From NCBI GenBank assembly GCA_903871545.1, contig CAIQHG010000004.1:1-54765 (forward strand): a stretch of DNA of 54,765 nt. Reading direction: 5' to 3'. Made by a program: the position numbers and the translations under genes. The notes beneath the pieces were generated by a model, which saw nothing but the letters and a program-made list of their open reading frames with translations, had not been told where the DNA came from and made no database searches. Of the stretch, positions 8,989 to 18,197 are shown piece by piece. Position 1 is the stretch's first letter. The number at the start of each line of letters is the position of its first letter. Source of the DNA: an uncultured Burkholderiales bacterium. GTDB taxonomy: Bacteria; Pseudomonadota; Gammaproteobacteria; Burkholderiales; Burkholderiaceae_C.

Positions 8989-9913
8989 ACACCCTTGCAA
9001 AGCACGGTTGTGGGTGAGCGTGTTGCTAATACAAAGCACCCTTACCTACTTTGCTTACTGTGCTTACCCCGCTTCCAGTGAGTCAGTCCAAGCGAGTCCT
9101 TTATCCGCTCCCCTTGCTCCAGCAAATACAACTATTAATTCAAACACCACTCCCCTTTCAGATAAGGAAAGCGCACAAGGACAAGCGCCCTTTTGCAAAA
9201 AACCAATCTACCTAACTTTCGATACCGGTCACATGGAGGTGGCCCCACTAATCTCTGATGTTCTGAGAAAAAACAATGTTCGGGTCACCTACTTTGCCGC
9301 TCAAGAGCGCACTAAAACCGGAGACGGGAGTCTAGGAGACACCTGGGCTAGTTGGTGGAGGCGCGAAGCACAGCTGGGCAACACCTTTGCCTCCCACACC
9401 TACGACCACGTTTATTGGAGCTCGGATCTGCCAGGTAACCGCTTCCTCTTTAAACCCAGCTCAGGCCCTTTGAAGGGTCAAACTCTTAACTGGGGTGCAA
9501 ATGAGTACTGCGACGAGCTCAAAAAATCCAACCAAAGGCTCAAAGAGATCACCGGCATAGAGCCGCTTCCTCTTTTTAGGGCTCCAGGGGGAAAGGTCTC
9601 TACTCAGTTACTAAATGCGGCAAAGTCCTGCGGATTTGAACACGTGGACTGGGCGGCGGCTGGGTTCTTGGGGGACGAGCTGAGCAGCAAAGATTTCTCC
9701 AATGCTTTTCTTTTAAGTAAAGCATTAAAAGGCATTCAAACGGGAGACATCTTAATGGCTCATTTGGGTATTTGGTCTAGACAAGATCCTTGGGCTCCAA
9801 CAGACTTAGAGCCCCTGATCACTGGGTTGAAAGAAAGGGGATTTTGCTTTGAGAGCTTAACCAGACACCCGCGGTTTAAAGATTGGATCTCCCTACACCC
9901 CAAGTCGTATTGA
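8972..9913 (+). CDS. Exported polysaccharide deacetylase (NodB fold)
   Basis: Predicted to remove acetyl groups from a cell-surface or wall polysaccharide (carbohydrate esterase family 4). ATG 8972 is preferred over TTG 8966; both overlap the preceding beta-propeller gene. A signal-type hydrophobic segment (LWVSVLLIQSTLTYFAYC) is followed by a Ser/Ala/Pro-rich spacer to about residue 75. NodB motif 1 appears as YLTFDTGH (Asp-Thr in place of the usual Asp-Asp), motif 2 as SHTYDH with both metal-binding His, and motif 3 as FRAPGGK. The first-motif change keeps the catalytic Asp but replaces the metal-ligand Asp, so activity needs checking. Homologous proteins in Burkholderiales are usually annotated simply as polysaccharide deacetylases. 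Tight overlap with the upstream gene suggests a shared transcript. Confidence 0.85.
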   Translation: MQKEFRHPCKARLWVSVLLIQSTLTYFAYCAYPASSESVQASPLSAPLAPANTTINSNTTPLSDKESAQGQAPFCKKPIYLTFDTGHMEVAPLISDVLRKNNVRVTYFAAQERTKTGDGSLGDTWASWWRREAQLGNTFASHTYDHVYWSSDLPGNRFLFKPSSGPLKGQTLNWGANEYCDELKKSNQRLKEITGIEPLPLFRAPGGKVSTQLLNAAKSCGFEHVDWAAAGFLGDELSSKDFSNAFLLSKALKGIQTGDILMAHLGIWSRQDPWAPTDLEPLITGLKERGFCFESLTRHPRFKDWISLHPKSY

Positions 9914-14619: not shown

Positions 14620-14713
14620 GCCCGAGTGGTGAAATTGGTAGACACAGCGGACTTAAAATCCGCCGCTTTCGTTAATAGCGGGCGTACCGGTTCGATTCCG
14701 GTCTCGGGCACCA
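14620..14713 (+). tRNA. tRNA-Leu (anticodon TAA)
   Basis: Acceptor arm GCCCGAG pairs with CTCGGGC, followed by discriminator A and encoded CCA (14711-14713). The anticodon stem GCGGA/TCCGC closes loop CTTAAAA, giving TAA. A long variable arm (CGCT...AGCG) and the T arm CCGGTTCGATTCCGG are present. The 3' half and downstream flank recur in decayed form at 16858. Confidence 0.95.
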
Positions 14714-14910
14714 AGCAGCCATGCGCCTTCCAGGAGGCCACCTTCATCTGGACTGCTTATTTGTGCCCCTTTTGGCGTTGCACAATCCTTGCACAAATTT
14801 TTAGCACGACCTAGATTTTCTCAATCAATAAAGTTATTTTTTGAGTCAGTATAAGCTTTCTACGAAATCAATAAATTGCTATAAAAGCTATGGTAGATTG
14901 CAAATTCAAA

Positions 14911-15309
14911 CTATTTAATTAACTTTTCTTGAGCTTTTTTTAAAGCATTTTGCACTGTTTCGACAAGCTCATCGTTATCCCACGGTTTACTCACTACTTT
15001 AAAAATATGCTCTTTTTTTAAATTAACAGAGTCATCCAAAATCATGGTTGTGCCAGTTAACATGATAAGCGCAATAAGGGGGTGATCAGCGTGTATTCGC
15101 TTCAAAAGCTCTCCCCCGTTCATGACAGGCATAAGGTAATCTGATAAGACCAGGTCAACGTGGTTCGAATTTATCAACTCAAGCGCAATTTGACCGTTTT
15201 CGGCGGTCAACAATTGGTATCCTAAGCGCATGAAAAGCCTACGAAGTGATGAAAGTATGTTGGGCTCATCATCTACTAAAAGTAGAACTGTATCTTCAAT
15301 ATTTTTCAT
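14911..15309 (-). CDS. Receiver-only response regulator
   Basis: A single REC domain of 132 residues with no output domain, acting probably as a phosphorylation-dependent switch or phosphate sink. Acidic pocket D13-D14 (LVDDEPNIL), phospho-acceptor D57 (LSDYLMP), T85 (MLTGTT) and K108 (VSKPWDNDEL) are all present, so it should be phosphorylated. The sequence DDEPNILSSLRRLFMRLGY is close to the receivers of the two HD-GYP regulators at 33092 and 36224, which also share the SKPW/TKPW ending, so it is probably a relative that lost or never had the HD-GYP output. No histidine kinase is adjacent. It sits in the tRNA-Leu islet and is more AT-rich than the core genes. An upstream promoter is plausible in the AT-rich DNA before 15309. 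Confidence 0.88.
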   Translation of the reverse strand: MKNIEDTVLLLVDDEPNILSSLRRLFMRLGYQLLTAENGQIALELINSNHVDLVLSDYLMPVMNGGELLKRIHADHPLIALIMLTGTTMILDDSVNLKKEHIFKVVSKPWDNDELVETVQNALKKAQEKLIK

Positions 15310-15507
15310 GTAACCTCATTGAGTTTTGAACAACGTTGAATCAAAACTATTTCAATTAATTCAATATTTTTTTATTCTTTACTCATCATTCTTAGTGCAT
15401 TAACTCCCAATAAAGTGGAACCAAGAATAGCTTGTTTGAAAATAAAAGTATCAAAAACAGTATTAATAAAATAAAAAAGTATTGACAAGCCAATTTTACT
15501 CTAAAGC

Positions 15508-15544
15508 ACCAATCACTCAGTAATTTGAATACGAGGTGATTGGT
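15508..15544. terminator. Hairpin between carbonic anhydrase and regulator
   Basis: ACCAATCAC (15508-15516) and GTGATTGGT (15536-15544) form a perfect 9-bp stem around a 19-base loop. It lies 37 bp past the carbonic anhydrase stop, as a terminator or mRNA-stabilising hairpin would. There is no strong T-run, so termination is inferred. Confidence 0.45.
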
Positions 15545-15580
15545 ACATTTAGATTTAAAAATGAATTAGGGTCGATTCAA

Positions 15581-16306
15581 TTAATTTGCTTCTTGTACTT
15601 TGCGCCCGTTCAAAGGTTGGACAGACCTAGCATTCATTTTAAAAATTTTCTGAAACGATGCTATTTGACCTTTTGATAATTCAACTGGCGTTTTGAGGAC
15701 TTGCCATGCCACGCTTTCGCTGCAAGGTGGCGTAGTCAAAGAACCTGTGAACGCATAGTATCCTAAATTAGCTGGTAATATTTTAGTTACATCAAAAGCT
15801 GCAGGCAGAGCTTTTGAGCCTTCAGTTTCTGGCATGTTAGCAAATACATCTTTCAATGCTGCGTTTTCTTTCCCTTCTTTTAATAAGACTGCTATAACTG
15901 CTAAGTTTCCTGCGTCATTTTTATGAACTAAATGCGCAACCATTGCGTAATTTGCGCCGTTTATTTTTTCTTCACTTGGCGTGTGAAAGTGAAACTGCAC
16001 CAAGCTGAAGCTTCCACTAGGTACAGAAGCAGTTCCTGCATCTTTTAAATTAATCTGAATGGTGTGTCCATTATTGACAACTTCACCAGAAGCAGCGTTA
16101 TAAGAAGTCTTGATCGGACTTAGGGAAGCTTTTTCAACAGATGACGTCTTGATATCAATTGGAGATTGATTTTGTCCAATCTTACAAGTTTTGAAATCCT
16201 CGGCCAAGTCTCCCCATTTCGCCACTTCGCTGTAATCCCAGTGTGCAGCAGCACCCGCAAAAGATGAAATGCTAATCATTGACGCTATCAGAAAAATCTT
16301 CTTCAT
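15581..16306 (-). CDS. Periplasmic alpha-carbonic anhydrase
   Basis: Interconverts CO2 and bicarbonate in the periplasm. A signal peptide (MKKIFLIASMISISSFAGAAA) precedes mature AHWDYS. Zinc ligands are H106 and H108 in the QFHFHTPSEE motif and H125 in AHLVH. C41 (KTCKIGQNQSPIDI) and the Cys of TTPPCSE can form the conserved disulfide. NQSPIDI and LTTPPCSE are alpha-class hallmarks, and 241 residues is the normal bacterial length. It is isolated from other metabolic genes and lies in the AT-rich tRNA-Leu islet, with codon and base use leaning to AT, consistent with acquisition. A dyad at 16340-16356 lies just upstream. Confidence in the enzyme class is high; the physiological need is unknown. 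Confidence 0.95.
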   Translation of the reverse strand: MKKIFLIASMISISSFAGAAAHWDYSEVAKWGDLAEDFKTCKIGQNQSPIDIKTSSVEKASLSPIKTSYNAASGEVVNNGHTIQINLKDAGTASVPSGSFSLVQFHFHTPSEEKINGANYAMVAHLVHKNDAGNLAVIAVLLKEGKENAALKDVFANMPETEGSKALPAAFDVTKILPANLGYYAFTGSLTTPPCSESVAWQVLKTPVELSKGQIASFQKIFKMNARSVQPLNGRKVQEAN

Positions 16307-16339
16307 TTTTGTTTCCTTGTTAAATTTTTAAAACCATTT

Positions 16340-16356
16340 ATTATGTTTTACATAAT
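16340..16356. promoter_or_regulatory. Candidate operator upstream of carbonic anhydrase
   Basis: ATTATGT-TTT-ACATAAT is a perfect 7+3+7 dyad 34-50 bp upstream of the carbonic anhydrase ATG, where a promoter should be. It could bind a dimeric regulator; a chance dyad in AT-rich DNA is possible. Confidence 0.35.
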
Positions 16357-16857
16357 GCGGCGAGTCTAACCTGTAAATGTTTCACTTTGAAGTGCATGTA
16401 ATTCAATATTAAAACTATTACACCTTTGGTAATAATTTATTTTAAAGAAGACTAAAAAATGATGTTTTAATTGATCCTCAAATTAGCTCATGTTTTATTA
16501 CATATTTGTAATTGACGCCACCAGATTTTTATATCTTTCGAAAATTATTTTAGTATCACTTTTTTTAAAATCTAATAGCGATAAAAAAAACCAAACTAAA
16601 ATGTTATTTCTAACTTGTCGGTTTTCTTAAATAAAATTAACTTAAAACGCGGCATCAAATTTCCATTCGACCTCAGACCTAGCCATAATGAGTAATGCTC
16701 CCCTTTTGTTGAGGCGTTAAAAGTAGAGACTTTATATAGTCATTGCTATTTGCTGCTTCTCACAGTCGTTGCTAAAAATCTTAGGGATATTGAATCTAAA
16801 ACAACCTCATTTGACGTAAGAGTTAGTTTACATTTAATGAATTATGATGCGTATCCC

Positions 16858-16905
16858 TACCGGCTCCATTACGGTCTCTGGCACCCAGTATCCATTCGCC
16901 TTCCA
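16858..16905 (+). pseudogene. Decayed tRNA-Leu 3' end (attachment-site-like repeat)
   Basis: Aligns without gaps to 14685-14732 with 40 of 48 positions identical: the T arm, acceptor 3' strand and about 19 bp beyond the CCA (ending CGCCTTCCA in both). Looser similarity runs on to about 16975 versus 14812 (for example the GCGTT and TAGC words). The 5' half of the tRNA is absent. It is therefore a partial tRNA copy, not a functional gene. Confidence 0.8.
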
Positions 16906-17069
16906 AGGGTTTTTACCTTTGGGAGGGAGTTTCATGGTTATAGCGTTTTACAGTCGTTGCGCATTTAATCTAGCGATACTATTGATTTGTCAAGTTTGCA
17001 GTGCTTAGCTTTTTAAGCAAAATAAAGTAACTCTAGGGTATTTACTAAAAAAAGTCCCTTAAATAATTC

Positions 17070-18197
17070 TCACTCCACACTTACGTTAACACTATAGCCG
17101 TGGGTTTTTAATAGTGCATGTTGTTTTGCTTGTGCGAGGTCAACCAAAACCATTTCTTTGCACATCTCTTGGACCGTAATCTCTGGCACCCAGCCCAATT
17201 TTTGTTTGGCCTTGGAGGGGTCACCGAGTAAAGTTTCCACCTCCGTAGGTCTGAAATAGCTTGGGTCGACTCTGACTATTACGTCTCCCGCCTTTAGGGC
17301 GGGACAATTATCCCCATTTACTGCCATAACAACCGCGTGCTCGTCCACACCGATTCCCCTAAATTGCAACTCTATGCCCAGCTCCTCAGCTGTCCACAAA
17401 ATGAACTGGCGAACGCTGAACTGAACACCAGTTGCAATAACGAAATCCTCGGGGTGGTCTTGTTGGAGCATCATCCACTGCATACGAACGTAATCTTTTG
17501 CGTGACCCCAGTCCCTCAGTGCGTCCATATTACCCATGTACAAACAGCTCTCTAAACCGTAGCCAATATTGGATAAACCCCGAGTGATTTTGCGGGTCAC
17601 AAAGGTCTCACCACGGCGGGGACTCTCATGGTTAAACAAAATCCCGTTACACGCATAAATGCCGTAAGCCTCTCTGTAATTAACTGTAATCCAATAAGCG
17701 TACATCTTTGCAACGGCATAGGGACTGCGCGGGTAAAAAGGAGTGGTCTCCTTTTGCGGTGTCTCTTGAACCAATCCGTAAAGCTCGCTCGTACTGGCCT
17801 GATAAAAACGTGTCTTTTTCTCAAGCCCCAATATCCTAATGGCCTCCAAAATCCTAAGTGTGCCCATCGCATCCACATCTGCTGTGTACTCAGGACTCTC
17901 AAAGCTGACAGCCACATGACTTTGCGCGCCCAAGTTGTAAATTTCATCGGGCTGCGTCTCTTGAACGATTCGAACTAAATTACTTGTGTCCGTAAGGTCT
18001 CCGTAGTGCAACTTAAAGTTAAGTTTATCGGTGTGCTGATCTTGGTAGATATGGTCTACACGCTGGGTGTTAAAGAGACTTGCGCGGCGTTTAATGCCGT
18101 GAACGATATAGCCCTTTTCCAACAAGAATTCAGCTAAATAAGAACCATCTTGACCCGTTACGCCCGTTATAAGAGCTACTTTTTGTTGATTAGCCAA
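17070..18197 (-). CDS. gmd: GDP-mannose 4,6-dehydratase
   Basis: Converts GDP-mannose to GDP-4-keto-6-deoxymannose, first step to GDP-L-fucose, in the cytosol. The NAD(P)-binding motif [16 protein letters not shown] starts at residue 9; the catalytic triad region includes STSELYG and [15 protein letters not shown] (YxxxK); [16 protein letters not shown] is a Gmd signature. Length 375 is typical. It is the last gene of the manC-fcl-gmd group, with 56 bp between fcl and gmd. Its product feeds fcl, whose gene lies immediately upstream. The decayed tRNA-Leu copy is 165 bp beyond its stop. No oddities. Confidence 0.96.

Follow-up and report, generated by a model that had tools for sequence, protein, structure and literature searches.

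How did the 3' end of a tRNA gene come to stand more than once beside a small islet of genes in a freshwater bacterium? The question is raised by the window, which here means the whole analysed stretch of 54,765 nucleotides from an uncultured member of the Burkholderiales, in which a tRNA-Leu(UAA) gene (14620-14713, plus strand; ARAGORN and Rfam tRNA, anticodon taa by ARAGORN) is followed downstream by a repeat of its own end. An earlier note, made from the letters alone, took the repeat for the trace of an old, shrunken integrated element, with duplication of the tRNA flank as the alternative. The reading preferred here, to which we give a probability of roughly three in four, is that tRNA-Leu(UAA) has been a repeated attachment site of tyrosine-integrase elements, that the repeats at 16651 and 16858 are displaced 3' ends, and that the present tRNA gene is the rebuilt target.

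The repeated tRNA end and the islet beside it

A repeat search of the window bears out the similarity first described: 14685-14732 matches 16858-16905 at 40 of 48 positions (83%), with the displaced fragment in direct orientation and the intact tRNA-Leu gene at the opposite end, and the 5' half of the tRNA has no second copy in the window, as had been stated. The second-best ungapped match of the 48-mer in the window, both strands considered, is 27, and the maxima in shuffled sequences, scanned on one strand, are 27 (300 dinucleotide shuffles of 14733-17069) and 29 (60 shuffles of the whole window), which rules out a chance origin of the repeat. The downstream copy, copy B (16858-16968, plus strand), consists of a decayed tRNA-Leu 3' end from the T arm onwards, a flank and a decayed form of the paired TTGCACA motif discussed below. 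The weaker similarity that the earlier note followed to about 14812/16975 is marginal between the two window flanks (score 25 past the first 48 bases, reached by 6 of 500 shuffles) but strong between copy B and the tRNA-Leu flank of the related genome G029, where about 110 bases align (score 96 versus a shuffle maximum of 38; E 4e-11), beginning in the T arm and continuing past CCA as far as two paired TTGCACA words. This comparison is independent, whereas the score of copy B with the motif model R1 is circular, copy B being part of that model. Copy B carries an element-type flank and not a plain chromosomal end. It begins in the T arm, adjoining the start of a vapB gene, and lacks the anticodon part, so that its own crossover is unreadable. 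The stretch of the G029 flank that matches 14714-14775 contains a 12-pair terminator-like hairpin, and the scan that detects it finds none in the window's own flank.

Between the copies lie the two genes originally reported, both full-length ORFs confirmed by Pfam and both on the minus strand: a lone response-regulator receiver protein (14911-15309; PF00072, 1.2e-23) and an alpha-type carbonic anhydrase (15581-16306; PF00194, 2.2e-45). The islet is indeed AT-rich (GC 34.8% for 14734-16857 versus 45.9% for the window), and it is indeed devoid of an integrase, yielding chance-level tblastn matches only. Resident recombinases were considered as a local source and rejected, the four PF00589 matches of the window's genome (G000) all lying on other contigs. 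The chromosomal flank on the far side carries gmd (17070-18197, minus strand; PF16363) and is also found in G019, G076 and G088.

The position of the receiver and carbonic anhydrase genes suggests that they arrived with a mobile element as its cargo, the link being positional. Among 84 genomes of the genus, the nearest relative of the receiver (G021, 71%) stands as the first gene downstream of a tRNA-Phe, a position consistent with cargo of tRNA-targeting elements. At this locus (L166 255-845), the relative has the same orientation to its tRNA as the receiver in the window, and by eye its neighbour resembles a histidine kinase gene. The nearest carbonic anhydrase relative in the same 84 genomes is in G034 (84%), the remaining matches listed being at 37-53%, and no tRNA was found near it within a 16 kb stretch; by eye, this gene is followed by an apparent remnant of an MNT/HepT-like pair (L150 8446-8733). 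The two genes were not recovered as a pair elsewhere, which the earlier note had suggested looking for at other tRNA-Leu genes: no relative among the 84 genomes carries both.

Nor was an empty tRNA-to-gmd site, another comparison put forward at the outset, found in the relatives. In G019 the interval can be read on one contig, in G076 and in G088 over two, and in each case it is occupied by other genes: 9 kb of them in G019, a truncated MNT and a methyltransferase in G076, and an MNT/HepT-like pair and a methyltransferase in G088. G012, G027 and G086 share the upstream neighbourhood, their contigs ending before gmd. The contents between the OGT-tRNA side and gmd differ among the window, G019 and G088, and tRNA 3' repeats are present in the window, G018 and G076. 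MNT/HepT-like pairs follow tRNA-Leu in three genomes with differing neighbourhoods (L043 7167-7939, L097 8782-9554 and L095 112-926), and in G088 the contig opens with a tRNA 3' half ahead of the pair; HepT relatives of at least 69% number three among the 84 genomes, all in these pairs.

Another neighbourhood than the tRNA-gmd one of the window is represented by the junctions of tRNA-Leu with a DUF6806 gene, which lies downstream of the tRNA in 44 of 61 loci (one per genome, out of the 84 genomes), and within 60 bp of it in 36 of these 44. Eight other islets (0.5-4.9 kb) lie between the tRNA and the DUF6806 gene, and a tRNA 3' copy is absent from all eight, so the spot also gains genes without the mechanism considered here; extension of the repeat-bounded model to all islets at tRNA-Leu is thereby ruled out. 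In the window, a fumarase gene (PF05681) and a DUF6806 gene, both within 161-2443, lie 12-14 kb upstream of tRNA-Leu, which indicates a change in the neighbours of the tRNA. A search beside this DUF6806 gene (1691-2480) revealed no tRNA remnant.

Breakpoint, arm motif and flank in relatives

The search for tRNA-Leu copies covered the same 84 genomes, of which seven gave no match. Seven partial copies were scored (four in G018 and one each in G035, G076 and G079), and all seven start in the anticodon loop. The corresponding stem GCGGA/TCCGC and loop CTTAAAA of the window's tRNA (loop 14652-14658, plus strand) form the candidate crossover core, placed by these breakpoints in the relatives. Immediately 5' of the core 0-3 bases match, and beyond these 3-9 of 18 (4.5 by chance). 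In one copy, G018-C18b, the core itself is altered, and the copy in G079 was scored against the tRNA of G018, its own tRNA not having been found. The count was kept apart from G021:C18 (core missed by the script, loop-started by eye), G088:C44 (at a contig start), the window copies A and B, and partial matches beyond the genus. A degraded tRNA-Leu 3' copy in G021 (L054 9747-9891), loop-started by eye, sits amid chromosomal genes.

Some of the halves 5' of the crossover resemble one another across genomes, with mutual likeness of 11-13 of 18 among G035, G079 and G018-C57, and 12 of 18 between G018-C18a and G076, the remaining 17 of 21 pairs sharing 1-11. Likeness of this kind is the trace that elements with related integrases would be expected to leave.

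Past the tRNA, the window has an element-type flank (14714-14775, plus strand) and then a paired TTGCACA motif, CGTTGCACAATCCTTGCACAAA (14776-14797, plus strand), which may represent the arm-type sites of an integrase. The motif is unique in the window, and 200 shuffles gave four pairs in all. It is identical at 20 of 22 positions to the motif between tRNA-Leu and an integrase gene in G035 and G020, in which the order is tRNA-Leu (tRNA-Leu(UAA) in G035), CGTTGCACAGTCGTTGCACAAA and, 125 bp past CCA, a tyrosine integrase. Between the window's flank and those of G035 and G020 the motif pair alone aligns, 62 and 55 bases past the tRNA. The integrase has 410 amino acids in G035 and is interrupted by a contig end in G020; the G035 protein matches phrog_1 (PHROG integrase) at 3e-30, with weak matches to SAM-like Pfam families and none in NCBIfam. 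The element in G035 is divided over contigs; its distal partial tRNA copy, found on a different one, is preceded by a related motif, CGTTGCACAAAACGTTGCACAA, and followed after 63 bp by a DUF6806 gene.

Of the 84 genomes, 45 contain a protein related to the G035 integrase at E<=1e-5; none was found at that threshold in G000, G018 or G029, the three genomes with the extended flank. Of twelve loci with such relatives, tRNA-Leu, tRNA-Lys and tRNA-Asn account for two each, and the other six have no complete tRNA in the stretch covered; the family seems to have switched tRNA targets. Within this genus, L156, L158, L163 and L164 are loci at which relatives of the G035 integrase stand beside tRNA-Lys and tRNA-Asn. 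Among 5.8 billion proteins, 1640 relatives were found at E<=1e-20. A virus as carrier was considered and rejected, the exact flank pattern having no match in viral_contigs; a search of that collection for the G035 integrase gave 13 pattern stretches, none of them confirmed.

These observations bear on whether an integrase is needed at all. Cassettes could instead have been exchanged between tRNA-Leu loci by homologous recombination after DNA uptake, with the tRNA sequence common to these loci as the region of homology, and such integrase-free exchange would accommodate the three extended-flank genomes without a relative of the G035 integrase, the islets that have no repeats, and the occurrence of the MNT/HepT-like pair after tRNA-Leu in differing neighbourhoods. 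It is very unlikely, however, since it predicts neither the fixed breakpoint in the anticodon loop, the 5' limits failing to scatter in any of the seven copies, nor a conserved paired motif in flanks that are otherwise unlike.

Evidence for lateral delivery comes from the flank itself, whose distribution does not follow genome relatedness. An exact match to the tRNA end with its flank is found in just two further genomes of the GTDB contig collection, the Burkholderiales MAGs CAIMNS01 (KT_bin-0802) and CANJNC01 (Comamonadaceae, RH-23may17-643), taken as G029 and G018, respectively, and apparently of freshwater origin, to judge by their bin names. With the arm motif counted in, the window's post-tRNA flank is identical to those of both G018 and G029 at 73 of 84 positions. 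By SerS (PF02403), however, the window is at 85-89% identity to G086, G019, G076, G027 and G012, and at 74% to G018; by IspH (LytB, PF02401), it is at 81-84% to G027, G012, G076 and G019, at 85 and 87% to the two pieces found in G086, and at 74-75% to G018 and G029. For G088, SerS had no match and IspH stood at 70%, and this genome was therefore left out of the set of closer relatives (n=5). Comparison of the window's flank with those of G012, G027, G076, G086 and G088 gives shuffle-level scores only, and with that of G019 the arm motif only. A flank common to the distant G018 and G029 and absent from five relatives closer by SerS points to lateral delivery and not to duplication of the flank.

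On this evidence, a segmental duplication of the tRNA-Leu 3' end and its flank, with no mobile element involved and with ordinary chromosomal genes in between, is most improbable. Such an event would suit the missing integrase, the start of copy B in the T arm and the eight repeat-free islets at the spot, but it would not produce seven copies in four genomes with one breakpoint and element-like half-sites 5' of it, the integrase gene that accompanies the arm motif in G035 and G020, or a flank that distant and not close relatives have in common. The alternative offered by the earlier note is thus disfavoured by the breakpoints, the upstream half-sites and the flank distribution, while its main proposal of an old integrated element is strengthened by the breakpoint shared by seven copies in four relatives, the G035 integrase with its arm motif, and the flank shared with the distant G018 and G029.

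Proposed layers at one tRNA gene

Two features between the carbonic anhydrase gene and copy B add to the first description of the locus. Copy A (16651-16779, plus strand) comprises a decayed tRNA 3' end (GGCATCA for GGCACCA), a flank and an arm remnant, CACAGTCGTTGC, and is followed by a vapB remnant (16785-16853, plus strand) consisting of the upstream region and first codons, ATGATGCGTA, which match the vapB gene of G018. Alignment gives moderate support to copy A as a second decayed tRNA-Leu 3' copy, its arm part being detected at E 0.0088 by model R1, which was not built from copy A. The stretch 16763-16853 matches L041 925-1025 at E 2e-10, and in L041 the matched region is followed by VapB (PF09957) and a PIN protein (PF01850). 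The vapB match in the window stops after ATGATGCGTA, copy B starts four bases on, and the rest of the module is absent; no VapC relative was found in G000 at E<=1e-20. If a deletion joined the start of vapB to the T arm, this would account for the missing anticodon part of copy B.

It is unlikely that one island, since decayed, had its two ends at the tRNA and at copy B, with copy A a product of chance. The modest scores of copy A (33 and 34 in two comparisons, versus maxima of 29 in 500 shuffles) lend this explanation some weight, as does the distance from tRNA end to arm, 112 bases in copy A versus 74 in G018-C18a, which is a point against copy A. It is opposed by the same vapB upstream region following copy A as follows G018-C18a (score 77 versus a shuffle maximum of 33), and by the element-type flank of copy B. 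The vapB start between copies A and B, with its intact counterpart, vapB and then a PIN-domain gene, between two tRNA-Leu 3' copies in G018, argues for stacked insertions. Of the original proposal, the old integrated element is therefore retained, and the single shrunken element is replaced by several stacked insertions as the likelier history.

G018 has one intact tRNA-Leu and four partial copies. Its contigs C55 and C18 would together form one locus, the sole link being synteny with G087, in which tRNA-Leu, an MNT/HepT-like pair (HepT match below the Pfam cut-off) and an aldehyde dehydrogenase gene lie on a single contig. Joined in the inferred order of these two contigs, the locus would hold at least four tRNA-Leu 3' ends, counting the intact gene, around modules with a caspase-domain gene, a DUF2442 gene, a DUF6632 gene and VapBC. 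One more copy lies on C57, a contig unlinked to the C55/C18 locus. At L040 7611-10808 in G018, whose contig lacks the tRNA itself, a 3' copy of tRNA-Leu and its flank (9494-9642) have a BatA/VWA gene and a Phd/YefM antitoxin on one side and a TctC gene on the other.

In the reading of repeated attachment at tRNA-Leu(UAA), strand exchange in the anticodon loop would link the 5' half in the chromosome with a 3' half supplied by the element. This new half would bring its own flank with arm-type integrase sites, and the old one would end up further downstream by one insert length. A next insertion in the same way would cause displaced ends to pile up as layers. In the window, the layers would run from the tRNA with its arm sites (14620-14797) through the cargo of receiver and carbonic anhydrase genes, copy A, a vapBC module and copy B to gmd. 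Of vapBC, deletion would have spared no more than the upstream region and the start, and the integrase and most of the mobile DNA would have been lost. The copies, the common motif, the breakpoint that relatives have in common and the disagreement between flank and genome relatedness can be read from the sequences; the catalyst, the number of insertions, their order and the arrival of the receiver and carbonic anhydrase genes by this route are what we infer. The islet is probably immobile now.

Place among known tRNA-targeting islands

A faint repeat can be read as a layered series of insertions at one tRNA, for which the integrase family that probably made the layers can be named, and for which a core site (the anticodon loop) and arm sites are predicted and testable. 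Stacks of toxin-antitoxin and comparable modules without an integrase, in uncultured freshwater Burkholderiales, could escape integrase-based searches. Integron cassette arrays consist of small modules, some of them toxin-antitoxin, between repeated recombination sites, and are resembled most clearly by the G018 stack; unlike in integron arrays, the repeats here are tRNA 3' halves with an arm-like motif. By a bolder and rather doubtful extension, tRNA-Leu(UAA) would be an integron-like loading platform, at which cassettes without an integrase are stacked singly by an integrase supplied in trans, each of them excisable or reshuffled alone. Equally tentative is the list of such cassettes (VapBC, the caspase-like protein, the MNT/HepT-like pair and carbonic anhydrase), each of which would have a tRNA 3' half, with a flank and arm sites of its own, as its boundary.

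Displaced tRNA fragments left by integration are textbook knowledge (PMC4383910, PMC9897764), and recurring tRNA 3' repeats have been described in an island of freshwater Methylophilaceae (PMC10872708). The islands collected by Islander, like the window, have an intact tRNA at one end and a direct displaced 3' fragment (PMC4383910), and the anticodon-centred sub-site proposed here is that of 2083 of 3919 Islander islands (PMC4383910). By contrast, the Islander filter tests for an integrase (PMC4383910), and the island in the window lacks one. More than two tRNA ends are stacked here, whereas Islander describes four tandems of at least three, each member needing its own integrase (PMC4383910). 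Catalogued cases with three or more displaced tRNA ends in a stack are rare, and the usual requirement of an integrase for every island may be the reason.

The additive flexible genomic islands of freshwater Methylophilaceae (PMC10872708) share with the present case recurring tRNA 3' ends and variable genes at one tRNA. Their repeat is the last 20 bases of tRNA-Lys (PMC10872708), whereas here half of tRNA-Leu is repeated together with a flank and an arm motif, and an integrase-bearing relative has been identified here. The tRNA fragments arising from element insertion in PMC9897764 are, as here, partial tRNA sequences made by a mobile element; those fragments were mis-annotated as tRNA genes, whereas the present copies are too decayed for ARAGORN. 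Tycheposons (PMC10872708) are likewise tRNA-anchored islands of aquatic bacteria, but they carry a tyrosine recombinase, which the window lacks, and in the Methylophilaceae case the tRNA is tRNA-Met (PMC10872708). The window is accordingly a decayed new example of the known islands with displaced tRNA fragments, unusual in its stacking, its kept arm motif and its modules without an integrase.
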